A DNA stretch of 52,473 bases. Origin: a virus. The notes under the pieces were generated by a model, which was not told the origin of the DNA, did no database searches, and saw nothing but the letters and a program-made list of their open reading frames with translations. Below are positions 123 through 12,663 of the stretch, piece by piece. Positions within the stretch are counted from its first letter, which is position 1. The number at the start of each line of letters is the position of its first letter. The position numbers and the translations under genes are program-made. Location of the stretch: IMG/VR virus record IMGVR_UViG_3300037245_002311, positions 1 through 52,473 of that record. One strand, 5' to 3'.

Positions 123-150
123 TCAAGTGCCGAGACCGGTCTGCCGTTAA
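123..150 (+). promoter_or_regulatory. Sigma-28-like promoter P1
   Basis: TCAAG (123-127), a 15-nt spacer and GCCGTTAA (143-150), with an A-tract (113-118) just upstream. It matches the FliA-type pattern shared by twelve other sites in the left arm. Unlike most of them there is no ATG 8 nt downstream; the first gene starts at 188 with its own Shine-Dalgarno, giving a leader of roughly 30 nt. Confidence 0.75.
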
Positions 151-187
151 GGCTGGAAATCGCGCAGAGCGCGCCAGGGGGCACGGC

Positions 188-520
188 ATGGCAGTGATCA
201 GAACCTTCGAAATCGACTACGAGCCCGACACCGCCGAGAACGCTGAGCAGTTTCAGGTCGAAGCGATCGTCGAGATTCACGACCAGGCCGAGACGGTCGA
301 GGTCGTGATCGGCCAGGTCGATATTTGGGTGCAGCCGATCAGGCCGAACGTCTCGCCCTGGGTCGAGATCATGCACCCGCTGCCCGAGTGGCTCGAGACC
401 GAGCTGCGCGACCAGGTGCTCGACATTCTTCGAAGCGACGGCGCCGAATATGACGCGACCCTCGCCGCCCAGGAAGTGCTCGACGAGCTGCGCGCTCGCG
501 AAGCGCAGGCAGGCCTCTGA
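188..520 (+). CDS. Hypothetical acidic protein
   Basis: A 110-residue protein of unknown function, first gene after promoter P1. The start at 188 was chosen because AGGGGGCA lies just upstream and the open frame before it would cover the promoter. The product is strongly acidic with alternating hydrophobic strands in the middle (VEAIVEIHD...VEVVIGQVDIWV), suggesting a small beta-rich fold followed by a helical C-terminus (LRDQVLDIL, VLDELRAREA). Its stop overlaps the next ATG (TGATG), so it is translationally coupled to the following gene. Confidence 0.75.
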   Translation: MAVIRTFEIDYEPDTAENAEQFQVEAIVEIHDQAETVEVVIGQVDIWVQPIRPNVSPWVEIMHPLPEWLETELRDQVLDILRSDGAEYDATLAAQEVLDELRAREAQAGL

Positions 521-741
521 TGCCGGTCGAGACTCCTGAAGACCTGATGCACGAGGCCGTCGTGCGACTCGCCGAGAGCCTCGACCCTGCCCAGCAGGTG
601 CAGGTGCAACTCATGAAGGCGGCCGGCCGACTGCCGACCTGGTCGCCCAGGCTCACGAAGCTCGGGCTCGTCGCCGAGAATGGCCTGCTGACTGAGCTGG
701 GGCTCGAGGTCGCGACTCACCTGCTCGAGGGCGAACTGTGA
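520..741 (+). CDS. Hypothetical small protein, possible winged-helix fold
   Basis: A 73-residue protein whose ATG overlaps the upstream stop codon. The C-terminal half (LTKLGLVAENGLLTELG) has the pattern of a winged-helix recognition segment, a 'K-GLV-x-LTELG' arrangement seen in many small wHTH proteins, but no family can be named. The next reading frame overlaps its stop by 4 nt. DNA binding is an inference only. Confidence 0.65.
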   Translation: MPVETPEDLMHEAVVRLAESLDPAQQVQVQLMKAAGRLPTWSPRLTKLGLVAENGLLTELGLEVATHLLEGEL

Positions 742-968
742 AGAAAACACTCACGATTCTCGCACTGATCACCCTGCTCGCCGGCTGCGCGAGCTGGAAT
801 AACCCAGAACGAAGGGGGCACCGAAATGACGTCAGGCACTCAGCCGCCGAGCGACTCGAAGCAGAGAAGCTCTGGCTCTCGCACTGCAGAATCCACGAAA
901 ATGATGCCCGATGTCGATCGGGTGATTCGCAATCTCGCAGGCACCGCGACCAGGCCGACCGACGCTGA
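738..968 (+). CDS. Possible small lipoprotein overlapping the next gene
   Basis: A GTG start overlaps the preceding stop (GTGA) and opens with a lipoprotein signal: MKKTL, a hydrophobic stretch and the lipobox LLAGC, so Cys17 would be lipidated. The frame stays open to 968, but the last 143 nt overlap the following gene, which has a strong Shine-Dalgarno. Everything after about residue 30 may be the shadow of that gene, with low-complexity Arg/His-rich sequence. The signal peptide is convincing; the C-terminal half is not. It could be a membrane-anchored exclusion-type protein. Confidence 0.45.
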   Translation: MKKTLTILALITLLAGCASWNNPERRGHRNDVRHSAAERLEAEKLWLSHCRIHENDARCRSGDSQSRRHRDQADRR

Positions 969-1389
969 CGAAGCCGAGGTCGAGGTGATCTTCGAGCGCC
1001 GCGACGGCTGGCGGCTCGGTGCACCTCTGCACTTCGAGCGCACGGCATTCGAGACATGGGCTGATCGCTGGGTCGCCTACTGGCTGAGGGTCAGAGCGGG
1101 CCGATACCGCGGCTGGGAGCGCGTGCCGATCAGCCAGCATCGCTTTCTCGCCGTCGACTGCGAGATCGCAGCCGAAGAGCAGATTCGAAATCTGGTCGGG
1201 CGCTGGGGCCAGCAGGGCGCTGCGGGCTACCGGAAGGCGCTGCTGCTCGCCGGCGTGATCGACGAGCTGCTCGGCCGAGAGGTGCACGGCACGCTCTTCG
1301 CCTCGAGCCCTCCGGGCTGCAGCTACAAGCTGGCCCGGCGCTTCGTGCGCGAGACTCTGAACCCGACCGACGACGAGGTGACATCGTGA
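826..1389 (+). CDS. Hypothetical protein
   Basis: A 187-residue protein of unknown function. The ATG at 826 follows GAAGGGGGCACC, a typical ribosome site for this genome. After a polar Ser/Thr-rich N-terminus (about 25 residues), the sequence is amphipathic and rich in Trp/Arg (ERRDGWRLGAPLHF, WADRWVAYWLRVRAGRYRGW), followed by a helical region around 120-150. The stop overlaps the next GTG. No catalytic motif was recognised. Confidence 0.7.
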   Translation: MTSGTQPPSDSKQRSSGSRTAESTKMMPDVDRVIRNLAGTATRPTDADEAEVEVIFERRDGWRLGAPLHFERTAFETWADRWVAYWLRVRAGRYRGWERVPISQHRFLAVDCEIAAEEQIRNLVGRWGQQGAAGYRKALLLAGVIDELLGREVHGTLFASSPPGCSYKLARRFVRETLNPTDDEVTS

Positions 1390-1841
1390 GCGAGCAGACT
1401 GAAAGAGACGAAGGGCGCGAGCTTCGCCGCAGAAAGGTGATCGCGATGCTGATCAGGGCCGGCGGCCGCTCGATCTGGGATGGTGACGACAGGGTCGGCT
1501 GGGAAGACGGCGAGCCCAGGCAGACGATGCGAGGCTATGCGGTCGGCAGTCAGCTACTCGTCATGATCGAGAGCGAGGGCGGCATCGACGTGCTGCGCTC
1601 GATTAACCCGAAGAATTCGCTCGACGACCTGGGCGAGACGATCGCCCGAATCGGTAGGGGTGAGCCCGAGCCCTACCTGATCACGCAAGCGCTGCGCGAC
1701 AGCCTGATCGAGGCCGGCCGCCAGGCGATCGCGAAGCTCTGGTCGCACGAAGACCCAGAGCCGAGCCCCGAGCACCTGGCCCTGATCTCGGCGATCGACG
1801 AGCTGAGCCTGCTGCCTGCGGCCGCCACGAATAGGGGGTGA
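1386..1841 (+). CDS. Hypothetical protein
   Basis: A 151-residue protein starting with GTG overlapped by the upstream stop (GTGA). The N-terminal third is charged (TERDEGRELRRRK), the middle holds an aromatic beta-like segment (RSIWDGDDRVGWEDG, GYAVGSQLLVMIES), and the C-terminus is helical. No known domain was recognised. It lies in a tightly coupled run with the exonuclease gene downstream, which makes a nucleic-acid role possible but unproven. Confidence 0.7.
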   Translation: MSEQTERDEGRELRRRKVIAMLIRAGGRSIWDGDDRVGWEDGEPRQTMRGYAVGSQLLVMIESEGGIDVLRSINPKNSLDDLGETIARIGRGEPEPYLITQALRDSLIEAGRQAIAKLWSHEDPEPSPEHLALISAIDELSLLPAAATNRG

Positions 1842-1843
1842 GC

Positions 1844-2500
1844 ATGACCGAGACGCAAGCCGAAGAGAAAGACGAGGTCGCCTTTTTCGATCTCGAGACT
1901 GGGGGCTTCAAGAAATCCCAGCCGACGATTCAGGTCGCCGCGATCGTCGTCGACATCGCCCGCGACGGCTGGCCCGAGATCGAGCGCATCGAGGCGAAGG
2001 TGCAATTCGACCCCGAGATCTGCGACCCGCGAGCGCTCGAGCTGAATCACTACGACCCCGAGGTCTGGGCTCGTGAGGCCGTGCCAGCCGCCCAGGTGCG
2101 CCAGGATCTCGAGGCCTTCTTCAAGCGGCACCAGACGCTCGACCTGATCGGAAAGTCGAAGGGGGGCAAGCCTGGCAGGCCCTACAAGCTGGCGAAGGTC
2201 GGGGGGCACAACGTGAAGAGCTTCGACCTGCCTCGGCTCATACGCCTCTGGGGTGACGCTTTCCCGCCCTTCTGCCATTGGCGGTCGCTCGACACCCTTC
2301 AGCTGGCGGCCTGGGTGTTCGGATCAGGCCAGCACCCGCGGCGGCCGCTCGATCACAAGCTGCCGACGCTCTGCGCATTCTTCGACATCGAGCACGGGCA
2401 GGCCCATGAGGCGCTCGCCGATGTCGCGGCGACGATTCAGCTGGCCCAGAAGCTGCTCGAGCTGCAGCGCACCCTGGGGCTCGGGCAGAGGCCAGAATGA
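1844..2500 (+). CDS. DnaQ-like DEDDh 3'-5' exonuclease
   Basis: A 218-residue 3'-5' exonuclease of the DnaQ/RNase T superfamily, expected to remove nucleotides from 3' ends of DNA or RNA using two metal ions. All acidic motifs are visible: Exo I FFDLET (Asp16, Glu18), Exo II GHNVKSFD (Asp128), and Exo III HEALAD (His188, Asp193), so it should be active. The start at 1844 follows AGGGGGTGAG; an in-frame GTG lies two codons earlier. No polymerase domain is attached. It may proofread for an unseen polymerase or degrade host DNA or RNA. The stop codon is about 30 nt before the next sigma-28-like promoter. Confidence 0.9.
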   Translation: MTETQAEEKDEVAFFDLETGGFKKSQPTIQVAAIVVDIARDGWPEIERIEAKVQFDPEICDPRALELNHYDPEVWAREAVPAAQVRQDLEAFFKRHQTLDLIGKSKGGKPGRPYKLAKVGGHNVKSFDLPRLIRLWGDAFPPFCHWRSLDTLQLAAWVFGSGQHPRRPLDHKLPTLCAFFDIEHGQAHEALADVAATIQLAQKLLELQRTLGLGQRPE

Positions 2501-2534
2501 GCTGAGAAAAAGGCGCTCACCGCGGGAAAAACTC

Positions 2535-2561
2535 TCAAGTTTCAGGGGTTTCGACCGTTAA
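2535..2561 (+). promoter_or_regulatory. Sigma-28-like promoter P2 (leaderless arrangement)
   Basis: TCAAGTTT (2535-2542), an 11-nt spacer and ACCGTTAA (2554-2561), an almost exact match to the FliA pattern TAAAGTTT-N11-GCCGATAA. An A-tract lies just upstream. The ATG of the PP-loop gene is at 2569, 8 nt past the -10, so the transcript should begin at or next to the start codon. Confidence 0.85.
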
Positions 2562-2568
2562 GCAGTGC

Positions 2569-3528
2569 ATGACCGCCGCAAAAAACGCCGCCGAAAACGA
2601 CCTTCGAGACTTCGACTGGGTCGTCGTCAGCAGCTCAGCAGGGAAGGATTCGCAGGCGATGCTCGATCTGATCGTCGAAAAAGCCCGCCAGGCCGACGTG
2701 CTCGATCGCGTCGTCGTCGTGCACGCCGACCTGGGTCGCGTCGAATGGCAGGCGACCAGCCAGCCGATGCCCGAAGGCGTCGCCGAGATCTCAGTGCCTG
2801 ACCTGGCCGCCGAGCACGCTAAGGCCTACGGCCTGCGCTTCGAGATCGTGACACGACCGCAGGGCGACCTGCTCGAGCAGATCGAAGAGCGGGGCATGTT
2901 CCCCGGCATGGGCATGACTCAGTATTGCACCAGCGACCACAAGACCGCGCAGATCAAAAAGCTCTTCACCCGGCTCGTGCGCGAGACGAACGAAGCCGAC
3001 CCGAGCACGAAGAGCCGCCGAGTGCGAATTCTCGACTGCGTCGGGCTGCGAGCAAAAGAGTCTGACAAGCGGAGCGACCACCTTCTCGGCGGGCACTGGA
3101 AGGCCGACGAGTGGATCGTGAAGGGCGAGGCGCTGCCGATCGACGCGAACGGCTTCGCCTTCGAGCTAAACAAGAGAGCCAGCAACCCGACGAAGCGCGA
3201 AGTCATCAGCTGTTACCCGATCGCCGACTGGTCAGAGGCTGAGGTCTGGGCCCGAATCGACCAGGCCGTCACGCGATCGCACTGGGCCTATCAGGCCGGA
3301 ATGCCTCGCCTTTCTTGCTGCTTCTGCATCTATGCCTCGAAGCACGCGCTCATGATCGCCGGCCGCCATAACCCCGACCTGCTCGTCGAGTACGTGAGGG
3401 TAGAAAAGGCGATCGGGCACAATTTCCACGGCGAACCCGGAAAGAGCGGCAGCTTCTCGATCGCCTCGATCGCCGAGGCCCTCGAGACGGGCACCGAAAT
3501 CGAAGACGAAGGCTGGGGGAATTCATGA
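2569..3528 (+). CDS. PP-loop / PAPS-reductase-family protein 1
   Basis: A 319-residue member of the adenine-nucleotide alpha-hydrolase (PP-loop) superfamily, nearest in layout to phosphoadenosine-phosphosulfate reductases and DndC-like proteins. Visible signatures: ATP-binding loop SSSAGKDSQ (21-29), Cys120, GLRAKESDKR (159-168), YPIADWSEAEVW (216-227) and a cysteine cluster CCFC (250-253). The family activates a substrate by adenylation or reduces a sulfonucleotide; four clustered cysteines could hold metal or an Fe-S centre. It is transcribed from P2 with no room for a leader. Together with a second PP-loop gene and a DpdA-like gene nearby, it suggests nucleic-acid modification rather than sulfur assimilation; that role is inference. 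Confidence 0.85.
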   Translation: MTAAKNAAENDLRDFDWVVVSSSAGKDSQAMLDLIVEKARQADVLDRVVVVHADLGRVEWQATSQPMPEGVAEISVPDLAAEHAKAYGLRFEIVTRPQGDLLEQIEERGMFPGMGMTQYCTSDHKTAQIKKLFTRLVRETNEADPSTKSRRVRILDCVGLRAKESDKRSDHLLGGHWKADEWIVKGEALPIDANGFAFELNKRASNPTKREVISCYPIADWSEAEVWARIDQAVTRSHWAYQAGMPRLSCCFCIYASKHALMIAGRHNPDLLVEYVRVEKAIGHNFHGEPGKSGSFSIASIAEALETGTEIEDEGWGNS

Positions 3529-3908
3529 AGAAATGCCCGCAAGGCTGGGAAGACTGCGGCCGATGTCACCGGCCGAAATTCAAAAGCAACGCGCACGGGC
3601 CCGACCAGGCGATCAGGCCTCTGCTGCCTGGCGCGCACGGCGAGGCGATCGAGGTGCGCGAAGAATGGCACCGGAAACGCGAAGAGATTCTCGAAAACTT
3701 CGACCGGCGCCCCGACCTGGTGCGCGCTCTGGGCGCTGGCAGCCGCGAAGCCGTGCTCGCCGACACCCTGCGCGAGCTGCGCAACGTCGAAGCCGATCTG
3801 CGGCGCTGGGTCGAGCAGGTGCCCGTCGGCTGGCGCCTCGAGATGGAAATGCGCCTCGGCACCGTCGAGCTGGCGAATCGGGCCGTCGAGCGTGAGGGGC
3901 TCGAATGA
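3525..3908 (+). CDS. Hypothetical Cys-knuckle and coiled-coil protein
   Basis: A 127-residue protein, ATG overlapping the stop of the PP-loop gene (ATGA), so probably translated with it. The N-terminus carries a cysteine group (CPQGWEDCGRCHR, Cys4, Cys11, Cys14) that could bind zinc. The remainder is a long charged helix (REEWHRKREEILENF, LADTLRELRNVEADLRRW). No family was recognised. The coupling to a PP-loop enzyme suggests it could be a partner. Confidence 0.7.
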   Translation: MKKCPQGWEDCGRCHRPKFKSNAHGPDQAIRPLLPGAHGEAIEVREEWHRKREEILENFDRRPDLVRALGAGSREAVLADTLRELRNVEADLRRWVEQVPVGWRLEMEMRLGTVELANRAVEREGLE

Positions 3909-4150
3909 AGCGCCCGCAGGCCCTTGAGTCAGAGAGCGACATCGAGGAGCGAGAAGAAAACGCGCGACTGACGGCCGACGCGCTGCTCGACGAATGGCAG
4001 GCTGCAGCGCGTGCGCTCGAGAGAATCAGCGGGCACCTCGCCGGCCTCCATGCGATGCGAGAGCTTCGGCGCTTCGAGCGGCAATTCGAAGCGGCCACTA
4101 AGAAGCTAGAGGCCTTGGCCGCTCGGATCATTCGAGACGGCAAGCGCTGA
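3905..4150 (+). CDS. Hypothetical coiled-coil protein
   Basis: An 81-residue, almost wholly helical charged protein starting 4 nt before the upstream stop. Two heptad-like segments (REENARLTADALLDEW; LRRFERQFEAATKKLEAL) suggest a helical hairpin or dimeric coiled coil. Function unknown. A 52-bp gap with no recognisable signal follows before the next gene. Confidence 0.65.
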   Translation: MKRPQALESESDIEEREENARLTADALLDEWQAAARALERISGHLAGLHAMRELRRFERQFEAATKKLEALAARIIRDGKR

Positions 4151-4202
4151 ACGCGGCCGCCAGGCCTGAGGTTATGACGGGCCCAAGAAAAGGGGGGAAA
4201 CC

Positions 4203-4448
4203 ATGCACGACGAACTGAATCGCGAGACTCTGAAGCTGCTCGAGAAGCAGCACCGCCGGCGCGCGCTGGGCCTTCGAGGCTGCCTGGTGCGGGTGGTGGT
4301 GCTCGATGGGCCTAACGTGGTGAGATCATTCTTCGGCGAGCTGCAGAGCTTCGAGCCTGACGCCGACGAGATTCACCTGATGGGCGGGCACCCTGAGCTG
4401 ATCTCTTTCGACCGTGTCGTCGACATCAGACTCGCAGAGCCCTCATGA
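4203..4448 (+). CDS. Hypothetical small protein
   Basis: An 81-residue protein with a strong ribosome site (AAAGGGGGGAAACC before ATG). A basic helix (LLEKQHRRRALGLRG) precedes a beta-rich half (LVRVVVLDG, VRSFFGELQSFEPDADEIHLMGG) that looks like a small barrel of the Sm/SH3 type. No family is recognised. The stop overlaps the following zinc-finger gene. Confidence 0.7.
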   Translation: MHDELNRETLKLLEKQHRRRALGLRGCLVRVVVLDGPNVVRSFFGELQSFEPDADEIHLMGGHPELISFDRVVDIRLAEPS

Positions 4449-4639
4449 CCTTTCGCTGCTCGATCTGCCGCCAGGTCTATCTCGACCAGGGCGGCCAGGC
4501 TGGCGAGGCGATCGGCGTCTGCGAGGCCTGCGGCCGCCGGCTGCTCGGCGACGCCGGCTTCGAGGCTGCTCGAGATCGAGCCCTCGACAAAGTGCACCGC
4601 CTGCGCACTCGCCTGAATCTGAAGCGAAAAAAGGCCTAA
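4445..4639 (+). CDS. Small zinc-ribbon protein
   Basis: A 64-residue protein with two CxxC pairs (CSIC at 5-8 and CEAC at 26-29), a classic four-cysteine zinc ribbon, then a basic helical tail (RLRTRLNLKRKKA). Its stop codon TAA is also the first bases of the -35 element of promoter P3. One of at least seven small Cys-pair proteins in the left arm; such proteins often bind RNA polymerase or nucleic acid, but the target is unknown. Confidence 0.75.
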   Translation: MTFRCSICRQVYLDQGGQAGEAIGVCEACGRRLLGDAGFEAARDRALDKVHRLRTRLNLKRKKA

Positions 4640-4663
4640 AGATCTCGAGGGGCTCACCGATAA
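4637..4663 (+). promoter_or_regulatory. Sigma-28-like promoter P3 (leaderless arrangement)
   Basis: TAAAGATC (4637-4644), 11-nt spacer, ACCGATAA (4656-4663), with the A-run AAAAAA upstream. ATG at 4671 is 8 nt past the -10 and follows GGTGAGC. The -35 overlaps the stop codon of the upstream gene. Confidence 0.85.
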
Positions 4664-4670
4664 GGTGAGC

Positions 4671-5987
4671 ATGACCGACGCAAACACTCTCGAGACCCAG
4701 ACCCGCCGCTTCGTCGTGCTCAGCTACGGCATGGGCGTCGATTCGACCGCGATTCTGCTGCGCTGGCTCAGCGACCCCAGCTCTCGAGACTTCGACCTGG
4801 CCGACCTGATCGTCGTCACCAGCCAGACCGGCAGCGAGTTTCGGGGCTCGATCAGCCTCTGCGAGCAGCACGTGCTGCCGCTGCTCAAGGCCGCCGGCGT
4901 GCGCTTCGTCGAGATCGCCCGCCACCAGCGCAGCCAGAAGGGCCAGAAGTTTACCGTGCTGCAGGACTCTCGCAGCCCTGAGCGCCTGCACCCTGCCGGC
5001 GCCTATACGCTGGCCCGCGAGATGATCGAAGCCGGCACCGTGCCGCAGAGCGGCGGCGGTCACCTCTGCTCGATCAAAAGCAAGGCCGTGCCGATCGAGG
5101 CCTGGCTGGCCGAGCAGCCCGAGCTTCTGGGCGAGCGCGTGCACGTCATGGGCTACGCGAAGGGCGAAGAGAGCCGCAGCGCGAAAGACGTCGCCGCTCG
5201 AGCCGCCGCCGGCACGCTCGTGATCGAGCCCTACCGCATCGCCTTCGGCTTCGCGGCCGACGAGATGCCCCGAAGCGAGAAGACCGAGCGCGTCAGGGCC
5301 GAGAAAGCTCAGGTCGTCGCCGAGTTTCCGCTGCAGACCTGGGGCTGGGATCGAGACGCCTGCCTGGCCTTCATCGCCGAGCAGACCGGCGCCGTCTGGC
5401 CGAAGAGCGCCTGCACCTTCTGCCCCTTCGCCTTCAGTCGGAAAGACCGGCACCTGGTGCTCGGCCGCTTCGACGCCGAGCCGGCTGAGGCCCTCGAGGG
5501 CCTGCTCATGGAGGCTGGCGCGCTGGCGCTGAATCCCAGGGCGAAGCTCTTCAAGACGACCGGCCTGCGCGAAGCGCTCGAGGCCGCCGGGCACACCGAG
5601 GCCCTGGCGCTCTTCGAAGACGCCCTCGACGCCGCACCCTGGGCGATCTACCGCACCCGCCGGCAATTCACCGAGCGCCGCGATCACGTCGCCGGCTGCA
5701 AAAAAAGCACCTGCAGCTGCCCGATCAGCACCGAGAAATTCGGCGTGAATCGCTCGGTCGAGATCGTCGCCCAGGGCTCGCGCGCCGCGATCCTCGAGCA
5801 CCTCGAGCTGCTGGCTGAAGACCAGGGCCTGAAGGTCGACCGCGACGGGCCGATCGCCAGGGCGACCGTGCAGGGCTTCACCGAGAAGAGCCTCGAGGCC
5901 CGCGAAGAGATCCTCGCCGCAGCACCTCAGCAGGCCGAGGCGAAGGCGCCCCGATTCGACGAGGCGGCCTGGGCGGCGATCGACTGA
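4671..5987 (+). CDS. PP-loop / PAPS-reductase-family protein 2
   Basis: A 438-residue second PP-loop ATPase, distinct from the one at 2569. Motifs: nucleotide loop LSYGMGVDST (17-26), HLCSIKSK with Cys133, GYAKGEESRS (161-170), the typical tryptophan segment PLQTWGWDRDAC (220-231), and CTFCPF (248-253). A further cysteine group (Cys343, Cys348, Cys350) and a C-terminal extension rich in Ala/Glu distinguish it from plain PAPS reductases. It has the layout of phage-encoded sulfonucleotide-reductase-like proteins of unknown substrate. The start at 4671 is set by promoter P3, though an in-frame GTG two codons earlier exists. It is immediately upstream of the DpdA-like gene, favouring a DNA or tRNA base-modification role (inference). 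Confidence 0.85.
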   Translation: MTDANTLETQTRRFVVLSYGMGVDSTAILLRWLSDPSSRDFDLADLIVVTSQTGSEFRGSISLCEQHVLPLLKAAGVRFVEIARHQRSQKGQKFTVLQDSRSPERLHPAGAYTLAREMIEAGTVPQSGGGHLCSIKSKAVPIEAWLAEQPELLGERVHVMGYAKGEESRSAKDVAARAAAGTLVIEPYRIAFGFAADEMPRSEKTERVRAEKAQVVAEFPLQTWGWDRDACLAFIAEQTGAVWPKSACTFCPFAFSRKDRHLVLGRFDAEPAEALEGLLMEAGALALNPRAKLFKTTGLREALEAAGHTEALALFEDALDAAPWAIYRTRRQFTERRDHVAGCKKSTCSCPISTEKFGVNRSVEIVAQGSRAAILEHLELLAEDQGLKVDRDGPIARATVQGFTEKSLEAREEILAAAPQQAEAKAPRFDEAAWAAID

Positions 5988-6052
5988 GCTGGGGGCTCAG
6001 ATCCGGCACCTCGATCGAGGTCGAGAATCTGAAACCAGGCCGAGAAAAAGGC

Positions 6053-6080
6053 TCAAGTTTCGGGCACCTCTGGCCGTTAA
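6053..6080 (+). promoter_or_regulatory. Sigma-28-like promoter P4 (leaderless arrangement)
   Basis: TCAAGTTT (6053-6060), 12-nt spacer, GCCGTTAA (6073-6080) and ATG at 6088. The 65 bp before it contain nested palindromes (TCAGAT...ATCTGA around CCTCGATCGAGG) that could fold as a 3' stem-loop of the upstream message. Confidence 0.85.
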
Positions 6081-6087
6081 GGTGTGC

Positions 6088-6966
6088 ATGACCGACGCAA
6101 AAACCCTCAGATTCTACCTGGCAGGCATTAACTCACGACCGCTCGCAGCCGTCGCGAAAGGGCACGACGTGCTGATCAGCTTCGCAGACGTGAAGAAGGG
6201 CCCGGCATTCTGGGCCTGGCTCGCACCGATGATCGACGCCGGTCACTTTCGCTCAGTGATCCTCGACTCGGGCGCCTTCACCGAGCTGAGCGCTCGCAAG
6301 CGGGGCAAGACCTTCACGATCGACCTAGTCGACTTCGCCGACTTTGCAGTCGAAAACGCTCACCGCTTCACCTGGGTCGCGAATCTCGACTCGATCGAAG
6401 GCGATGTCGATCTATCGAATCGGAATCTGGCCTACCTCGAGAGCCGCGGCCTGCCCGTCGCACCCGTCTATCACGAGGGCGAGAGCCTCGAGCAGCTCGA
6501 GCACTGCGCCGCCCAGGCCCGCCAGGGTCGAGGCGTGCTGGCGATCGGCTGCCAGCGACCGAAGGGCTCTCTGCGACCCCGAAAGGTCGTCGAGTTTCTG
6601 ACCTGGCTCGCCCCCCAGCTCGAGCGCCTGGCCGGCGATCTCGAAGTGCACGGCTTCGGCCTGACCCGCTACGCGAGCGCAGCCTGCCCGTGCGGCTCTG
6701 ACGGCTTCAGCTTCGCGAGCGTCGACTCGACGACCTGGATCGCCGAGGGGTGCGCACTGTATCGATCGGGCGCGATCGCCGACCGTCACGCCTCGTTTCG
6801 CGCGACCGTCGACAGCTATCACGGCGTCGCCTGGGTCGACCAGCTCGAGCCCGACGTCGGCTTTCACGGCGAGCCCTTCGACATCGCCCAGGCCCTCGAG
6901 GCTGGCGGCCAGGCCGCGACCGTCGCCCGCCGGCACCAGGCGCTCGACCAGGCCGTCGCCGCCTGA
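6088..6966 (+). CDS. DpdA-like (TGT-fold) DNA transglycosylase candidate
   Basis: A 292-residue protein with the layout of phage DpdA/tRNA-guanine-transglycosylase-like enzymes, which exchange guanine for a 7-deazaguanine base. Visible signatures: LDSGAF (59-64) corresponding to the TGT DSGGF active-site loop, PVYHEGES (126-133), AIGCQRPKG (152-160), VHGFGLT (187-193) and SVDSTTW (211-217, Asp213 a candidate nucleophile). A CPC motif lies at 200-202. The short length and DSGAF signature favour DpdA-like DNA enzymes over genuine tRNA TGT, which is longer with a C-terminal zinc site. The fold begins at residue 8, so translation must start at the promoter-proximal ATG. QueC/D/E or FolE genes are not in the window, so the base would come from the host or from genes outside. 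Which nucleic acid is the substrate is unproven. Confidence 0.72.
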   Translation: MTDAKTLRFYLAGINSRPLAAVAKGHDVLISFADVKKGPAFWAWLAPMIDAGHFRSVILDSGAFTELSARKRGKTFTIDLVDFADFAVENAHRFTWVANLDSIEGDVDLSNRNLAYLESRGLPVAPVYHEGESLEQLEHCAAQARQGRGVLAIGCQRPKGSLRPRKVVEFLTWLAPQLERLAGDLEVHGFGLTRYASAACPCGSDGFSFASVDSTTWIAEGCALYRSGAIADRHASFRATVDSYHGVAWVDQLEPDVGFHGEPFDIAQALEAGGQAATVARRHQALDQAVAA

Positions 6967-7017
6967 GCCCAGGCCCTCATTCGCGCAGGAAAAACGACAA
7001 GAGCGCGAAAAAAGGGC

Positions 7018-7045
7018 TCAAGCTCGAGGCCCGTTCTGCCGTTAA
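7018..7045 (+). promoter_or_regulatory. Sigma-28-like promoter P5 without an adjoining ATG
   Basis: TCAAGCTC (7018-7025), 12-nt spacer, GCCGTTAA (7038-7045), preceded by GCGAAAAAAGG. At the place where other copies have ATG there is ACG (7053). It lies 147 bp upstream of a second promoter, P6, in the same orientation, with no convincing gene between them. Confidence 0.75.
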
Positions 7046-7164
7046 GAGAACTACGGCGCCCCTGCGCGATGACAAGCAACTAAAGCGCAACTTCTGCGCG
7101 GCCGTTCAGCTTTCCGCTGGTTATGGAATCGGTAATAAATCGACCGCCGAATGTGAAAAACCGC
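7046..7164 (+). ncRNA. Candidate short RNA between promoters P5 and P6
   Basis: About 120 bp lie between two sigma-28-like promoters. The segment is richer in A/T than its neighbours, contains a small hairpin (GCGCA-ACTTC-TGCGC) and has only a four-codon ATG frame. A long frame from ACG at 7053 reads in phase into the next gene, so an N-terminally extended protein is the alternative. No tRNA-like TPsiC or acceptor pairing was found. Confidence 0.25.
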
Positions 7165-7192
7165 TCAAGCTCAGGCCCTGCCCTGCCGTTAA
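7165..7192 (+). promoter_or_regulatory. Sigma-28-like promoter P6 (leaderless arrangement)
   Basis: TCAAGCTC (7165-7172), 12-nt spacer, GCCGTTAA (7185-7192), ATG at 7200 after GGGGTGC. A GAAAAA run lies upstream. Confidence 0.85.
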
Positions 7193-7199
7193 GGGGTGC

Positions 7200-7388
7200 A
7201 TGACCGCAGAGAAAAAAGGGCAGAGAATGACCTGCAAAGTCGCGATTCGATACGTCTGCACCGCCTGCCGCTACCGCTGGGTGCGAGACGTGAACGCCAG
7301 CAGCCCTCAGATCATGACCCGACCGATTGGAACGCCCGACTGCCCGGCCTGCCGGCCGGCGCCTCGAGGCGAGTGCCGCACGCGCTGA
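7200..7388 (+). CDS. Small zinc-ribbon protein with two possible starts
   Basis: A 62-residue protein with cysteine pairs CTAC and CPAC flanking a short basic segment, typical of a zinc ribbon. The promoter-linked ATG at 7200 begins MTAEKKGQR; a second ATG at 7227, in frame, is preceded by AAAAAAGGGCAGAG, a usable ribosome site. It may be made in two forms, or the first nine codons may serve as a leader. The stop overlaps the A-tract of promoter P7. Function unknown. Confidence 0.7.
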   Translation: MTAEKKGQRMTCKVAIRYVCTACRYRWVRDVNASSPQIMTRPIGTPDCPACRPAPRGECRTR

Positions 7389-7397
7389 AAAAAGGGC

Positions 7398-7424
7398 TCA
7401 AGCTCGCTGCCGTGCTGCCGATAA
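7398..7424 (+). promoter_or_regulatory. Sigma-28-like promoter P7 (leaderless arrangement)
   Basis: TCAAGCTC (7398-7405), 11-nt spacer, perfect GCCGATAA (7417-7424), ATG at 7432 after GGTGAGC. GAAAAAAGGG precedes it. Confidence 0.88.
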
Positions 7425-7431
7425 GGTGAGC

Positions 7432-7827
7432 ATGACCGCGACGCAAACTGGGGGCACTGAGATGAGCATCAGACTGAACGAGCTGCTGACGAAGCCGGCG
7501 ATCGACTGGGCGCACTATGAGACCCAGGCCGCCGAGATGACCGACGAAGAGCTGATCGCCGCTCGCGTCGTCGCCTTCGAGACGTCGCGCGACCCGATGG
7601 TCACCGGCACCGATCTCGAGGGCTGCTGGCGCGACGCCGGCAGCGTCTTCGCCGGCGAGACCCGATTTCGAGAAGCGAAGGCCGCGACGATCGCGAAGAC
7701 CGCCGCCAGTCTGCGCCTCGACTCGAAAGACTTGGCCGACCGGATTCACGAAGCCGCCGCCGCCGATCCCAGCTCGATCTGGGCCGGCATCGCTGACCTG
7801 CTCGACACCGTCGAGGCAACGTCGTGA
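7432..7827 (+). CDS. Hypothetical protein, dual start
   Basis: A 131-residue protein from the promoter-linked ATG at 7432, or 121 residues from an in-frame ATG at 7462 that has its own ribosome site (TGGGGGCACTGAG). The product is acidic and helical (NELLTKPAIDW, MTDEELIAARVVAFE) with no recognised domain. The stop overlaps the GTG of the OB-fold gene, so the two are co-translated and may be functionally linked. Confidence 0.72.
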   Translation: MTATQTGGTEMSIRLNELLTKPAIDWAHYETQAAEMTDEELIAARVVAFETSRDPMVTGTDLEGCWRDAGSVFAGETRFREAKAATIAKTAASLRLDSKDLADRIHEAAAADPSSIWAGIADLLDTVEATS

Positions 7828-8507
7828 GCGCGCCCTACCTCGACGACGGGCCGAAGGTCGACTGCCCCGAAGGTCGCCAGGTGCTCGAGGGCCTGGTCGT
7901 TTCCGAGAAGACCCGCGACGACGGCTTCGGGCCCGAGGGCCGCCAGGTGCTGACCGTGAAGGTCGAGACGCCCGAGGGCGCCTTCGTGATCTGGGGCACG
8001 TCGCCGAAGGCACTGCGCGAAGCTCCTGGGCTGCGTGGCTCGACCGTGCGATTCACCGCGACGCTGACTCGCAGCGACCGCGACGCGAGCTTCGGCTTCT
8101 TCAGCCGGCCGGCGAAGGCTGAAGTGCTCGAGCAGGGCGACGCCCAGAAGCCCGAGCTGATCGGCGCCTCGGGCTCGACCTTTCGGCTGCTCGAGCAGAT
8201 CATGCACGGCAAGAAAAACGCCGACCTGACGGTGAAGAGCGTCGGCCGAGTGCTCGCCCAGGCAGGCCTCGAGCGGCAGCGCTTCGAAGAGAATTTCGAC
8301 CATGACCGCGAGAATCACGCCCAGGAAATCTTCGACGGCGAGGGCGGCCGGCTCTTTCTGCGAATCTGGCCGAACGGCTGCGCGGGCGCCTGGTATGGCC
8401 CGCACCGAGACGAGCTGCGAGCCCAGGCTGAAGAGCGCGAAGCAGTGCTCGAGCGCGAGAAGGCCGAGCTGCTCGCCGATGTCGAGCGCTTCAGGGCTGG
8501 GCGCTGA
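7824..8507 (+). CDS. OB-fold single-strand-binding-like protein
   Basis: A 227-residue protein starting with GTG (GTGA overlap). The first 100 residues form an OB-fold pattern: VLEGLVVSEK, QVLTVKVETPEGAFVIWG, then STVRFTATLTRSDRDASFGFFSRP. The 'TVKVETPEG...W' and 'ATLTRSDRD...FGFF' segments recur in phage proteins with an RPA/SSB-like barrel. The C-terminal half is helical and ends in a charged coiled coil (EEREAVLEREKAELL). A role in single-stranded DNA handling is likely; the specific function is not known. Confidence 0.65.
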   Translation: MSAPYLDDGPKVDCPEGRQVLEGLVVSEKTRDDGFGPEGRQVLTVKVETPEGAFVIWGTSPKALREAPGLRGSTVRFTATLTRSDRDASFGFFSRPAKAEVLEQGDAQKPELIGASGSTFRLLEQIMHGKKNADLTVKSVGRVLAQAGLERQRFEENFDHDRENHAQEIFDGEGGRLFLRIWPNGCAGAWYGPHRDELRAQAEEREAVLEREKAELLADVERFRAGR

Positions 8508-8509
8508 TC

Positions 8510-8821
8510 ATGCGGCGAGAGCGCCTCAGCGGGCCGCAGATCAGCGCGCTCGAGTGCTGCGGGCTCGAGCACCCAGACGACGACGCCGAGCGCCTGCTCG
8601 CTCGATGCTGGGCTGCTGGTGATCGCCGAGCCCTCGTCTTCGACCCAGGCGAGGCCGAGGCACTCTGGGCTGCTCTGCGCGATCTCTCGAATGCTGAAGA
8701 CGATTTCGCCGAAGACCGCAGCCAGGATCGTGAAATGCGGCGACTCGCAGGTCGAGCTGCTCGCAGCCTGGGGGCGATCGGCAGCCGAGTGCTGATCTGC
8801 TGCAAGACCGGCCGATCGTGA
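8510..8821 (+). CDS. Hypothetical protein
   Basis: A 103-residue acidic protein starting 2 nt after the OB-fold gene and overlapping the GIY-YIG gene by 4 nt. It has a Cys pair (ECCGLEHP) and a C-terminal CC (LICCKTG) but no CxxC spacing, so zinc binding is doubtful. The middle is helical (EAEALWAALRDLSNAEDDF). Function unknown; it is in a coupled group with two nucleic-acid proteins. Confidence 0.65.
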   Translation: MRRERLSGPQISALECCGLEHPDDDAERLLARCWAAGDRRALVFDPGEAEALWAALRDLSNAEDDFAEDRSQDREMRRLAGRAARSLGAIGSRVLICCKTGRS

Positions 8822-9213
8822 GCGCGCTCGAGGCGATCGCCCTGAGCTTCGAGCAGCTGCGCCAGGCTGCCGCTCAGATCGTGATCGCTGACCTGCCGAT
8901 GATCGAGATCTGCGATCGTGAGATCTGGGCACGCCTGCCCTGCGAGTGCTCGGCCGTCTATTTCGTGACGCACCCGATCGACGGCGTGCTCTACATCGGG
9001 AAAACCGCCGCGATCCGGCAGCGCTGGGCCTCGACGTATCGGCTGGGCCGGCAGATCTATACTCTGAACCATTCGAAGCACGCCCAGGCTCTCGACCTGG
9101 GCGACTGCGAGCTTTCCTGGCTCGAGATCGATCGCTGCTACCTGGCCGCGCTCGAGGCCGCGCTGATCGGGCTGCACCTGCCTCCCTGGAATCTGCGCGA
9201 GAAATACACCTGA
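8818..9213 (+). CDS. GIY-YIG family endonuclease
   Basis: A 131-residue stand-alone GIY-YIG nuclease. Core motifs are present: VYF (47-49) for GIY, LYIGKT (58-63) for YIG, Arg67/Arg69 in the following helix, catalytic-type Glu113 in LEAALIGLHLPPWN, and Asn125. It should cut DNA through a single metal ion. The N-terminal 45 residues are a helical addition. GTG start overlapping the upstream stop. No homing-element context (no intron or interrupted gene), so it is more likely a phage repair, packaging or host-DNA nuclease. Confidence 0.85.
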   Translation: MSALEAIALSFEQLRQAAAQIVIADLPMIEICDREIWARLPCECSAVYFVTHPIDGVLYIGKTAAIRQRWASTYRLGRQIYTLNHSKHAQALDLGDCELSWLEIDRCYLAALEAALIGLHLPPWNLREKYT

Positions 9214-9226
9214 CCCGAAAAAAGGC

Positions 9227-9253
9227 TAAAGCCCTGGGCTGGTCTGCCGATAA
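9227..9253 (+). promoter_or_regulatory. Sigma-28-like promoter P8 (leaderless arrangement)
   Basis: TAAAGCCC (9227-9234), 11-nt spacer, perfect GCCGATAA (9246-9253), ATG at 9261 after GTAGTGC. CGAAAAAAGGC precedes it. This and P3 and P11 carry the TAAAG variant of the -35. Confidence 0.88.
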
Positions 9254-9260
9254 GTAGTGC

Positions 9261-9479
9261 ATGACCGACACAAACCTCGACAGCTTCGTGACACGAACCA
9301 ACGAGCACTTTCTCGTGCCCGAGTATCGGGCGCAGCGAGGCGCTGGCTGGACGCTGCACACCGACAAGGCGCAGCGATTCACCTTCGGCGACGCGATCGT
9401 CGAGCACCGGCTGCACGAGCGCAGCACGGTCGTCGAGGCCTTCGCCGACGCGATCGAGCAGCTGGCAGCAGCCAGCTGA
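9261..9479 (+). CDS. Hypothetical small protein
   Basis: A 72-residue protein beginning MTDTNLDSF at the promoter-linked ATG. No other start codon or ribosome site is available, so translation must begin on a leaderless or nearly leaderless message. The sequence is mixed helix and strand with His/Arg-rich centre (IVEHRLHERSTVVEAFADAI). Single-gene transcription unit between P8 and P9. Function unknown. Confidence 0.7.
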   Translation: MTDTNLDSFVTRTNEHFLVPEYRAQRGAGWTLHTDKAQRFTFGDAIVEHRLHERSTVVEAFADAIEQLAAAS

Positions 9480-9487
9480 AAAAAGGC

Positions 9488-9514
9488 TCAAGTCCAGCCA
9501 GGTCTCGCCGATAA
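9488..9514 (+). promoter_or_regulatory. Sigma-28-like promoter P9 (leaderless arrangement)
   Basis: TCAAGTCC (9488-9495), 11-nt spacer, perfect GCCGATAA (9507-9514), ATG at 9522 after GTAGTGC; the upstream TGAAAAAAGG shares the stop codon of the preceding gene. Confidence 0.88.
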
Positions 9515-9521
9515 GTAGTGC

Positions 9522-9746
9522 ATGACCGCGACGCAAAAAGGGGACACCATGACCGCCGAGATCGCCGAAGCCAAAGCTGATCACCTCGACACGATCGAGA
9601 CCTGCGAGGCCTACCTCGCCGACTACCAGGCGCACGTCGAGGCCGGCGGCAGCAACGCCGGCGCGCTCTTCAATATCACCGCCGCCGATTTCGCGAAGGC
9701 CCAGATCGCCTTCGAGCGCGACGCGATCGCGAAGCTCGAGGTCTAA
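9522..9746 (+). CDS. Hypothetical acidic protein, dual start
   Basis: A 74-residue acidic, helical protein (AEIAEAKADHLDTIETCEAYLADY). The promoter-linked ATG at 9522 begins MTATQKGDT; a second in-frame ATG at 9549 follows AAAAAGGGGACACC. A pairing of a leaderless ATG with a nearby canonical start, in the same frame, also occurs at 7200, 7432 and 10014. Function unknown. Confidence 0.7.
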   Translation: MTATQKGDTMTAEIAEAKADHLDTIETCEAYLADYQAHVEAGGSNAGALFNITAADFAKAQIAFERDAIAKLEV

Positions 9747-9756
9747 AGGGGCAGCC

Positions 9757-9987
9757 ATGAAAAAACACGTTCCGCAGAATCACGGGCTAATGCAGCGAAT
9801 CATCTCGGCCGAAAGGGTGAGCGAGCCGAGGCTCGAGCAGATCGTCGCGCTCGAATGCGGCCACGACTTCCGAGGCAACTGGACGACGTTATTTCCCCTC
9901 GGTGAGCTTTCGAGGTGTCGCGAATGCTTGTCGCCGAACGCTGACCCGACGAGCAGCCACTTCACTGGGGAAAAAGGCTCAAGTTAG
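9757..9987 (+). CDS. Hypothetical Cys/His protein
   Basis: A 76-residue protein with a strong ribosome site (TAAAGGGGCAGCC then ATG). A possible zinc site is formed by LECGHDF and CRECL. The remainder is polar. The C-terminus overlaps the -35 region of promoter P10. It shares the transcription unit of the gene starting at 9522. Function unknown. Confidence 0.65.
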   Translation: MKKHVPQNHGLMQRIISAERVSEPRLEQIVALECGHDFRGNWTTLFPLGELSRCRECLSPNADPTSSHFTGEKGSS

Positions 9988-10006
9988 AAGCTCGATCGAC
10001 CGTTAA
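9979..10006 (+). promoter_or_regulatory. Sigma-28-like promoter P10 (leaderless arrangement)
   Basis: TCAAGTTA (9979-9986), 12-nt spacer, ACCGTTAA (9999-10006), ATG at 10014 after GGTGAGC. It lies over the last codons of the preceding gene. Confidence 0.83.
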
Positions 10007-10013
10007 GGTGAGC

Positions 10014-10343
10014 ATGACCGCGACAAAAACCGCAAACCGAAAAGGGGCAGCCATGCAGCGACCTAATGACCCGATCACCCGCCTCGCCGACGTGGCGATG
10101 CACCTTTTCGCCGATCTCGCGGCCGCAGCTGGCCCCGAGGCGCCCTTCGCCCAGGCGCGCGAGCAGCTGGGCGATCGCTTCTTCACGGCCGCGACCGACG
10201 GCCTGCGCGCAGGGCTGAAGGCTCTGCTCACCGACGACCAGGTCGTCGCTGATCTCGATGCGGTCGGCCAGGCTGCGGCCGCTGAGCGTCTGCTCGGCGT
10301 CGCCCAGGCTGGGATCGACGCAGTGATCGAGGCCGCGGCATGA
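10014..10343 (+). CDS. Hypothetical Ala-rich protein, dual start
   Basis: A 109-residue protein from ATG 10014, or 96 residues from ATG 10053, which has the ribosome site AAAAGGGGCAGCC, the same 12-base block used at 9757. The product is alanine-rich and helical (LADVAMHLFADLAAAAG, LDAVGQAAAAERLLGVAQAGI). No family recognised. The stop overlaps the next ATG. Confidence 0.68.
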   Translation: MTATKTANRKGAAMQRPNDPITRLADVAMHLFADLAAAAGPEAPFAQAREQLGDRFFTAATDGLRAGLKALLTDDQVVADLDAVGQAAAAERLLGVAQAGIDAVIEAAA

Positions 10344-10492
10344 CGATCGAAGAGCTGCGGCAGAGACTTCACGAGATCTGGCTCGAGCACGGCGACGTCG
10401 AGGTGCTGATCGACGACCGAGGCGTCGAGCCGAAGCTCGAGATCGACATCGTCGACGAAGAGACCGGCCGGCTCGCAGTTTGGATCGGCTGA
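10340..10492 (+). CDS. Very small acidic protein
   Basis: A 50-residue protein beginning MTIEELRQRLHEIW, ATG overlapping the upstream stop. It is strongly acidic with a helix then a beta-like segment (VEVLIDDRG, LEIDIVDEETGRLAVWIG). The tight coupling and the coding-type composition support a real gene. Resembles many small phage proteins without known roles. Confidence 0.6.
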   Translation: MTIEELRQRLHEIWLEHGDVEVLIDDRGVEPKLEIDIVDEETGRLAVWIG

Positions 10493-10518
10493 GCTTCGTC
10501 GCTTGAAAGGGGGAAATC

Positions 10519-10809
10519 ATGCACGAAAAAACCGAGGCAGCGACCAGGGGCGCGATTCAGCGCGCGATCGACACTCGAGCGTGGAATCTCACCGGCCAGC
10601 CAGTGCGCCTGGTCGTCGACCGGCTTCGCGGCGGCCAAGGCCCCGAGCTTCACTTCGGCACGATCACCCTCGTGACGGGCTCAGTCGTCGAGCTGGCAAG
10701 CGACGGCACGGGCAGCTGCCTGCTCAGCACCTTCGAGATCGTCAGGGTCGACGCCGCGACCGCCGAAGATCTCGAAAAGGCTAAAGCCCGGCGGCCGGCT
10801 GCCCGATAA
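10519..10809 (+). CDS. Hypothetical small beta-rich protein
   Basis: A 96-residue protein with the ribosome site AAAGGGGGAAATC before ATG. The middle alternates strands (PVRLVVDRLRGGQGPELHFGTITLVTGSVVELAS), suggesting a small barrel; the C-terminus is a short helix overlapping the -35 and -10 of promoter P11. Function unknown. Confidence 0.68.
   Translation: MHEKTEAATRGAIQRAIDTRAWNLTGQPVRLVVDRLRGGQGPELHFGTITLVTGSVVELASDGTGSCLLSTFEIVRVDAATAEDLEKAKARRPAAR
10782..10809 (+). promoter_or_regulatory. Sigma-28-like promoter P11 (leaderless arrangement)
   Basis: TAAAGCCC (10782-10789), 12-nt spacer, CCCGATAA (10802-10809), ATG at 10817 after GGTGAGC. The promoter lies inside the last nine codons of the upstream gene, whose stop TAA is the end of the -10. 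Confidence 0.83.
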
Positions 10810-10816
10810 GGTGAGC

Positions 10817-10951
10817 ATGACCGACACCGACCGACCCGCGAATGACCGGCTCGAGCTTCCTGCCGACGTGGCAGCCCTCGAGGCGGCGATCGCAGATCTC
10901 GACCCTGAAGAGCAGGCGCTGGTCGCCGCGATTCAGGCCGCCCAGGGCTAA
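10817..10951 (+). CDS. Very small acidic protein
   Basis: A 44-residue acidic helical protein (MTDTDRPANDRLELPADVAA..., ending in IQAAQG) starting at the promoter-linked ATG. It shares the MTD start of other genes in this regulon. It is the only gene between P11 and the hairpin at 10991, so appears to be a single-gene unit. Function unknown. Confidence 0.6.
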   Translation: MTDTDRPANDRLELPADVAALEAAIADLDPEEQALVAAIQAAQG

Positions 10952-10990
10952 CAGGCGGGCCCGACTCCCAGGGCCTACTCGCCAGAGGGC

Positions 10991-11020
10991 CGCCCCCTTC
11001 GACCGTTCACGAAGGGGGCG
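10991..11020 (+). terminator. Strong 11-bp stem-loop
   Basis: CGCCCCCTTCG (10991-11001) and CGAAGGGGGCG (11010-11020) form a perfect 11-bp stem with an 8-nt loop. No T-run follows directly, so it may protect or process the message of the short gene upstream rather than terminate. It is symmetric and could act on either strand. Confidence 0.5.
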
Positions 11021-11078
11021 CGCTCGCTCTGCCGATCATTCTGCCGATTGAATTCGCCCCGAATCTGCCCTTTTTCGC

Positions 11079-11105
11079 TCAAGTTTGGCCGAGGCTCGCC
11101 GATAA
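11079..11105 (+). promoter_or_regulatory. Sigma-28-like promoter P12, best match to consensus
   Basis: TCAAGTTT (11079-11086), 11-nt spacer, GCCGATAA (11098-11105): 15 of 16 positions of the E. coli FliA consensus. ATG at 11113 after GGTGAGC. Here a T-run (CCCTTTTT) replaces the usual A-tract upstream. It drives a zinc-ribbon gene and the DNA methyltransferase. Confidence 0.9.
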
Positions 11106-11112
11106 GGTGAGC

Positions 11113-11310
11113 ATGACCGACGCACACCGACTCGAGACCGAAACCGGAAACCCGCTCATGCCGACGACCGCAGTCGTCGACTGCCCCGAGTGCCCGCAGG
11201 CGGGCCCTGGGCACACTCAGCTCGAGCTGCTCGCAGACGGCGGCGCGACCTGCCCGAACTGCAGCCGCTGGTGGGCCGACGCGAAAGCGCTGGTCGAGGC
11301 CGCACGATGA
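11113..11310 (+). CDS. Small zinc-ribbon protein upstream of the methyltransferase
   Basis: A 65-residue protein starting MTDAHRLETE at the promoter-linked ATG. Two CxxC pairs (CPEC and CPNC, the second followed by SRWW) form a zinc ribbon like those of transcription or translation factors. Its stop overlaps the start of the cytosine methyltransferase gene (ATGA), so the two are co-translated. Function unknown. Confidence 0.75.
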   Translation: MTDAHRLETETGNPLMPTTAVVDCPECPQAGPGHTQLELLADGGATCPNCSRWWADAKALVEAAR

Positions 11311-12242
11311 GGGCCGTCGATCTCTTCGCCGGCGCTGGCGGATTCACCCAGGGCGCGAGCCAGGCCGGCGTCGACGTCGTCTGGGCCGCGAATCACTGGC
11401 AGATCGCAGTCGATGCGCACTCGGCGAATCACCCGAGCGCGATTCACGTCTGCCAGGATCTGCAGCAGGCCGACTTCACGCAACTGCCCGAGCATGAGCT
11501 GCTGCTCGCGAGCCCGGCGTGCCAGGGGCACTCGAAAGCTCGAGGCGTCGACCGACCGCAGCACGACGTCACCAGGGCGACCGCCTGGGCAGTGATCGCA
11601 GCCGTCGAGGCCGCGATGCCTCAGGCCCTGATCGTCGAGAACGTGCCCGAATTCGCCGACTGGCAACTCTTTCCGATCTGGCGCCAGGCCCTCGAGGCCT
11701 ACGGTTACCAGGTCAGCACCCAGGTGCTCGACGCTGCCGACGCCGGCACGCCCCAGCATCGAGAGCGGCTCTTCGTCGTCGGCTCTCGCCAGGGCGCGAT
11801 CGACATCGAGGCCCCTCAGGCCGAGCACGTGCCCGCCTCGAGCTTCATCGACTTCGAGTCTGGCAGCTGGTCTGCGATCGATAAGCCGGGCCGCGCTCAG
11901 AAGACCCTCGACCGCATCGCCCGCGGCCGGCTCGAATTCGGCACGACGCCCTTTCTCGCGCCCTATTACGGCAGCGGCTCAGGGAAGACTGGCCGCAGCC
12001 TCGACCGCCCGATCGGCACGATCACGACCCGCGACCGCTGGTCACTGATCAAGGGCGACCGCATGAGAATGCTCACCGTCGCCGAGTATGCCGCCGCTAT
12101 GGGCTTCCCTCGGGGCTACGTGCTCGAGACCAGCCGAAAAAAGGCGATTCACCTGCTCGGCAACGCCGTGCCGCCGCAGCTGGCCGCGCACGTGATCAGC
12201 CAGGTCGCCGGCCAGATCGAGCAGGCCGAGCAGGCGGCATGA
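11307..12242 (+). CDS. C5-cytosine DNA methyltransferase
   Basis: A 311-residue C5-cytosine methyltransferase using S-adenosylmethionine. Motifs in order: I DLFAGAGGF (5-13); IV SPACQGHS (69-76), with Cys72 the catalytic nucleophile; VI ENV (111-113); VIII QHRERLF (150-156); X LGNAVPP (284-290). The variable region between VIII and X is short, so specificity cannot be read. No matching restriction nuclease is adjacent, so it is probably an orphan phage enzyme that protects the phage from host restriction. ATG overlaps the stop of the zinc-ribbon gene and both depend on P12. Confidence 0.93.
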   Translation: MRAVDLFAGAGGFTQGASQAGVDVVWAANHWQIAVDAHSANHPSAIHVCQDLQQADFTQLPEHELLLASPACQGHSKARGVDRPQHDVTRATAWAVIAAVEAAMPQALIVENVPEFADWQLFPIWRQALEAYGYQVSTQVLDAADAGTPQHRERLFVVGSRQGAIDIEAPQAEHVPASSFIDFESGSWSAIDKPGRAQKTLDRIARGRLEFGTTPFLAPYYGSGSGKTGRSLDRPIGTITTRDRWSLIKGDRMRMLTVAEYAAAMGFPRGYVLETSRKKAIHLLGNAVPPQLAAHVISQVAGQIEQAEQAA

Positions 12243-12270
12243 GTTTTTTCGATCGGCCGTCACTTTTCGC

Positions 12271-12298
12271 TCAAGGCTGGGCACTAACAGGCCGATAA
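12271..12298 (+). promoter_or_regulatory. Sigma-28-like promoter P13 (leaderless arrangement)
   Basis: TCAAGGCT (12271-12278), 12-nt spacer, perfect GCCGATAA (12291-12298), ATG at 12306 after GTAGTGC. Last of the series; no further copies were found to the right apart from a degenerate half-match near 20.6 kb. Confidence 0.85.
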
Positions 12299-12305
12299 GT
12301 AGTGC

Positions 12306-12335
12306 ATGACAGCGAGACAAACGGCAGGGGGATGA
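12306..12335 (+). CDS. Nine-codon leaderless mini-ORF
   Basis: The promoter-linked ATG opens MTARQTAGG and stops at TGA 12333-12335, one base before the next real start codon (ATG 12337). In other units the equivalent segment stays in frame with the downstream gene; here it is closed, so it would act as a leader peptide or as an untranslated conserved 5' end. This exception tests whether the ATGACC block is translated or is an RNA or DNA signal. Confidence 0.35.
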   Translation: MTARQTAGG

Positions 12336-12336
12336 A

Positions 12337-12662: not shown

Positions 12663-12663
12663 C

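Follow-up and report, generated by a model that had tools for sequence, protein, structure and literature searches.

Predicted FliA-class promoters, mostly placed for leaderless transcription, in the left end of an uncultured phage genome

Introduction

Phages are known to use the housekeeping sigma factor of the host, a phage sigma factor or a phage polymerase. The IMG/VR virus record IMGVR_UViG_3300037245_002311, analysed here over its whole length of 52,473 bases (the window; 64% GC), raises the question of whether a phage might transcribe part of its genome with sigma-28 (FliA), the flagellar sigma factor of its host. Its left end carries 13 near-identical elements, P1 to P13, which an initial annotation of the sequence had described as a regulon of FliA-type promoters. 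If this is true, an early regulon would rest on an alternative host sigma factor that reports flagellar assembly, and the outcome of infection would vary with the motility of the cell, whatever receptor is used.

Results

Thirteen elements on one strand

All 13 annotated coordinates were exact, each being that of the T of a TCAAG or TAAAG box on the plus strand (Table 1). The spacers were also as described, 14 nt in seven elements and 15 nt in six, and the annotated tracts were present, an A-tract before 11 elements and a T-tract before two. The −10 boxes read GCCG[AT]TAA in nine cases, ACCG[AT]TAA in three and CCCGATAA in one, and the next base is always G. P12 (11079) agrees with TAAAGTTT-N11-GCCGATAA at 15 of 16 bases, the figure given in the annotation. 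When the window was searched with the pattern T[CA]AAG-N10-20-NCCG[AT]TAA, exactly these 13 elements were found on the plus strand and none on the minus strand. The chance expectation of the two-box pattern was 0.055 per genome, with a maximum of 2 (200 first-order Markov simulations). CCGWTAA alone occurred 20 times, against 3.2 expected.

Because the 13 elements define their own consensus, we used an independent matrix, built from 25 Escherichia coli FliA sites obtained by chromatin immunoprecipitation and sequencing (PMC4183435, Table 2) and allowing N14 or N15. A FliA matrix scan of the phage had been proposed in the initial annotation, and in this one the nine top-scoring sites in 52 kb were all listed elements, with scores of 17.4–24.8 bits. 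The 13 elements together scored 12.3–24.8, and the E. coli sites themselves 8.9–28.4. Simulated genomes contained a mean of 1.7 sites scoring 13 or more. FliA-class spacing in E. coli is N14 between TAAAG and GCCGATAA, and both N14 and N15 are present in the cheV promoters of Xanthomonadaceae described below. A scan of positions 1–14000 for sigma-70-type promoters found none. It is very probable that the 13 elements are FliA-class promoters; for P1, P5, P6 and P11 this assignment would rest on likeness to the other elements.

Position of start codons relative to the elements

In 11 of the 13 elements an ATG follows the −10 box at a distance of exactly 7 nt, its A being the eighth base, and the corresponding transcripts are therefore predicted to be leaderless. 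The two elements without an ATG at this distance are P1, which is followed by a Shine-Dalgarno (SD) sequence and an ATG at 188, and P5, which has no clear open reading frame (ORF) downstream. Additional internal in-frame ATG codons behind an SD-like stretch were found after P6, P7, P9 and P10, and the leader peptide of P13 (nine codons) terminates at the start of the next gene. The elements of a second, unrelated virus, G006, bear on the start site. At the equivalent position they have A in 12 of 12 cases, with C before it in 11 of 12, and ATG in just four, which suggests that transcription starts at this eighth base.

Conservation and recurrence in other viruses

The related contig L003 is 12.8 kb long and shares about 80% identity with parts of the left end of the window. 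It reaches 3.6 kb further left and retains three of the elements in place. Across these three site pairs the boxes are identical at 40 of 42 bases and the spacers at about 30 of 46, which argues for selection on the boxes. A fourth L003 site retains TCAAG but has GCCGCTAA.

The same arrangement was found in other viruses. Twelve elements, with a conserved GCCGTTAAGGTATTCATAA, lie in the first 8.4 kb of the unrelated G006 (L018; 43.9 kb), which has a single weak protein match in common with the window; the closest proteins to the product of its T5 A1-like gene are Stenotrophomonas and Xanthomonas phage proteins. G007 (109 kb) carries eight elements. The reversed pattern, used as a control, had no match in either genome. 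The exact 16-base consensus gave at least 120 stretches in viral contigs, and 13 contigs among the matches listed contained 65 pattern matches compared with three reversed-pattern matches, with at most 11 per contig. Viral contigs with elements had 2–11 each, and the elements lie on one strand in L126/G639 (11), L100/G640 (8) and L112/G641 (5), in which no sigma region 2 was detectable. As the 13 contigs were selected for holding matches, and two of them (G648 and G649) look like near-duplicates, the counts support recurrence and not frequency. Of the single pattern matches in other viral contigs, most have the look of coding sequence or of chance events, with L018 and L019 as exceptions. Distant relatives of the exonuclease (L036–L043) and of the G006 A1-like protein (L045–L047) have 0–2 elements, and the array is thus not a family-wide trait. 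Only 0–3 scattered one-mismatch sites were found in the capsid relatives KPP23, RDJL and Mulvp2 and in Chi and FSL SP-088 (50 kb tested), and no elements in the parts of DLP_5 and KB12-38 that were scanned.

A matching promoter at the chemotaxis gene cheV of Xanthomonadaceae

A strict pattern derived from the phage elements was compared with 257 Gb of genomes from bacteria and archaea, in which we estimate from the pattern length that about 0.01 chance matches would be expected. The single match, in Pseudoxanthomonas japonensis, was the promoter of a gene identified by sequence as cheV (MTQDLLNRIDQRT...); flgM lies about 1 kb away and has a promoter of its own, TAAAG-N14-GCCGATAA. A looser leaderless pattern, searched in 398 genomes of the phylum, matched P. 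japonensis alone. Among Xanthomonadaceae, 13 of 18 cheV orthologues have TCAAG-N14/15-GCCG.... ending 6–8 nt (mostly 7) before the ATG. The L058 gene, with TCGAT, would make this 14 of 18, and the distance for L069 is printed as 10 since its match starts at residue 2. The 28 other gammaproteobacterial cheV genes included no leaderless case, and 16 of them have a FliA-type site 31–90 nt upstream of the start.

The Xanthomonadaceae cheV promoter and the phage elements thus share CTCAAG, a spacer of N14 or N15, GCCGAT.. and a start codon (ATG) 7 nt beyond the −10 box. The cheV promoter differs in serving a single chromosomal chemotaxis gene, in a −10 end that is often weaker (GCCGATAC/T) and in having no A-tract array. 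The sigma-28 signature that had been claimed for the elements is upheld by the E. coli matrix, the match to the cheV promoter, the geometry of Xanthomonadaceae cheV and the conservation of the boxes in L003. Since the phage elements resemble the leaderless FliA promoters of Xanthomonadaceae, these are the best available clue to the host, which we consider somewhat more likely to lie in or near this family than elsewhere. The clue falls short of proof, given that the looser pattern reached only P. japonensis among the 398 genomes and that the capsid protein had no relative in 200 genomes of the order.

Which sigma factor reads the promoters

No sigma-70 domain was found in the window, Pfam searches of its proteins included, in agreement with the annotation, which had recognised no sigma gene. 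Sigma region 2 was found in none of 14 other records (L003, G006 and 12 further contigs with elements), and G007 carries a sigma factor that is RpoD-like by sequence. As none of these sequences apart from G007 showed a sigma domain, host FliA is the economical reading, and the match to Xanthomonadaceae cheV promoters points to FliA of a Xanthomonadaceae-like host as the likely reader. The annotation had allowed for either host FliA or a sigma-28-like factor supplied by the phage; the first is favoured, and the second was not found in the window. Judging from these comparisons of sequence, we are fairly confident that the elements are read by host FliA.

Several points weigh against this interpretation. 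P5 has no clear gene, and P1, P5, P6 and P11 score 12.3–14.2 with the E. coli matrix, near background. The capsid protein had no relative in 200 genomes of the order to which Pseudoxanthomonas belongs, and no prophage was found in them. Many cells contain little FliA, an odd basis for a lytic programme. Finally, IMG/VR classes the record as linear without end repeats, so the window may be a fragment, and a phage sigma factor could lie beyond the sequenced part.

Such a factor, sigma-28-like and either encoded outside the window or too divergent for Pfam, could read the promoters, and in its favour L003 has an extra 3.6 kb on the left. Sigma factors are known in other phages, for example the phiEco32-like phage 7-11 (PMC8948821), and G007 combines eight elements with a sigma factor. 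However, the G007 factor looks RpoD-like and not FliA-like, searches of the window, L003 and 13 other records gave no sigma domain, and likeness to host cheV promoters needs no phage factor, so that we regard this alternative as improbable.

Another conceivable reader is a host sigma factor of the same clade without a flagellar role, which would link the phage to sporulation or pili and not to swimming. WhiG belongs to the FliA clade, recognises the same class of promoter and is a regulator of type IV pili in Rubrobacter (PMC8325347), which makes a non-flagellar member of the clade a possible reader, and the host of the phage is unproven. However, the leaderless geometry and the CTCAAG box fit cheV of Xanthomonadaceae, a chemotaxis gene beside flgM, and the A1-like protein of G006 is closest to proteins of Stenotrophomonas and Xanthomonas phages; a reader of the WhiG type seems very unlikely. 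Some mycobacteriophages have repeats associated with gene starts, or operators bound by a phage regulator; elements of this kind, not promoters, would explain why the repeat often continues into the start codon (CATGACCG), but hardly the two conserved boxes with a drifting spacer of 14 or 15 nt, the strong match to an independent FliA matrix, the lack of the ATG at P1 and P5 or the same geometry in host cheV, and we give this explanation almost no weight.

A proposed link to motility

If host FliA (E-sigma28) is the reader, as we prefer to think, it would transcribe the early/middle genes of the phage from the 13 FliA-class promoters, the term early/middle being taken from gene content. The start site would lie roughly 8 nt beyond the −10 box and, for 11 of the promoters, coincide with the A of the ATG; the resulting leaderless mRNAs would encode PAPS-reductase-like proteins, a queuine tRNA-ribosyltransferase (TGT)/DpdA-like protein, a DNA methyltransferase, an exonuclease and small proteins. 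The A-tracts may act as UP elements. The host would probably be a Xanthomonadaceae-like gammaproteobacterium with the same leaderless FliA promoter at cheV. FlgM holds FliA until the hook-basal body is complete, and the phage programme would therefore run most strongly in cells whose flagella are already in place. This link to motile cells follows from the biology of FliA and FlgM, and the chances that infection is truly gated by motility appear evenly balanced. The structural genes have no FliA-type element and must use a different signal.

Comparison with known systems

The class 3 FliA promoters of E. coli (flgKL, flgMN, tar, fliL; PMC4183435) resemble the phage elements in having TCAAG or TAAAG, N14 and GCCGATAA, and their scores fall in the same range. 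Unlike them, the phage elements are present in 13 copies in 12 kb, also use N15 and GCCGTTAA, and are predicted to give leaderless transcripts. A repeated promoter class also drives a temporal gene set in the phiEco32-like phage 7-11 (PMC8948821), but that phage encodes its sigma factor, whereas none was found in the window. The flagellotropic phage Chi (PMC9266447) depends on motile hosts, as is proposed here, but does so at adsorption, and it lacks such an array over the 50 kb tested.

No report of a phage regulon under FliA was found in the open-access literature, a scope outside which most subscription-journal papers lie. The flxA gene of E. coli is a prophage gene, belonging to a defunct prophage. 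It is FliA-dependent (PMC4183435) and is the nearest item in the literature, being a gene of phage origin under FliA, but one gene and not an early regulon. It is as easy to believe as to doubt that several phage lineages with no relation to one another have each placed their early genes under the flagellar sigma factor of the host, so that transcription, with no phage sigma factor, restricts productive infection to cells committed to swimming. An early regulon of the kind proposed here would offer a sequence signature predicting flagellated hosts of uncultured phages.

Gene content and other features of the window

The terminase, portal, major head protein and tape-measure genes lie at 22–37 kb, and the region from 0 to 12 kb contains an exonuclease, two PAPS-reductase-like genes, a TGT/DpdA-like gene, a GIY-YIG protein and a cytosine methyltransferase. 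The two PAPS-reductase-like genes and the TGT/DpdA-like gene are consecutive (2569–6966), each with its own FliA-type promoter, a combination that points to a module for base modification of DNA or RNA. A search of IMG/VR for the DpdA-like protein found no relative, megablast of the first 12.5 kb against known phages gave no match, and several large proteins of the tail region were without a counterpart in PHROG. The TAA of P11 doubles as the stop codon of the gene at 10519–10809.

Table 1. Coordinates of the elements and of associated features in the window
Feature	Position	Strand	Sequence or match	Remarks
P1	123..150	+	TCAAG-N15-GCCGTTAA	Leadered gene; L003 counterpart at 3753, boxes identical
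P2	2535..2561	+	TCAAG-N14-ACCGTTAA	ATG at 2569
P3	4637..4663	+	TAAAG-N14-ACCGATAA	ATG at 4671
P4	6053..6080	+	TCAAG-N15-GCCGTTAA	ATG at 6088
P5	7018..7045	+	TCAAG-N15-GCCGTTAA	No clear downstream ORF
P6	7165..7192	+	TCAAG-N15-GCCGTTAA	ATG at 7200
P7	7398..7424	+	TCAAG-N14-GCCGATAA	ATG at 7432
P8	9227..9253	+	TAAAG-N14-GCCGATAA	ATG at 9261
P9	9488..9514	+	TCAAG-N14-GCCGATAA	ATG at 9522
P10	9979..10006	+	TCAAG-N15-ACCGTTAA	ATG at 10014
P11	10782..10809	+	TAAAG-N15-CCCGATAA	ATG at 10817; L003 counterpart at 10673
P12	11079..11105	+	TCAAG-N14-GCCGATAA	ATG at 11113; top FliA matrix score (24.8)
P13	12271..12298	+	TCAAG-N15-GCCGATAA	ATG at 12306, leader peptide; L003 counterpart at 11203, boxes identical
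Terminator-like hairpin	48..64	+	7-pair stem GCCCCCAGGCTGGGGGC, then T-rich tail	Just upstream of P1
PAPS-reductase-like gene	2569..3528	+	Pfam PF01507, E 2e-9; phrog_424	Predicted leaderless from P2
Second PAPS-reductase-like gene	4671..5987	+	phrog_424, E 6e-12	Predicted leaderless from P3
TGT-like (DpdA-like) gene	6088..6966	+	phrog_887, E 4e-23	Predicted leaderless from P4
C5-cytosine DNA methyltransferase ORF	11190..12242	+	PF00145, E 2e-47	Downstream of P12; conserved part from about 11307

Three further features were noted outside the array. Degenerate tandem repeats of about 48 nt containing AAAGTTTTC occupy 18854–19250 and are possible origin or regulator sites. A lone palindrome at 20693–20708, TGTTCCACGTGGAACG, is very near to the bacterial parS (ParB) site and lies just upstream of the gene at 20725–21291; the phage may recruit host ParB there. 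One reading considered for this gene was a regulator whose C-terminus is rich in helices; an AlphaFold model made without an alignment was uninformative (predicted local distance difference test score, pLDDT, 38). Near the right end, a CI-like helix-turn-helix repressor is encoded on the minus strand at 51922–52164, a candidate for a divergent control region or a sign of temperate ancestry.

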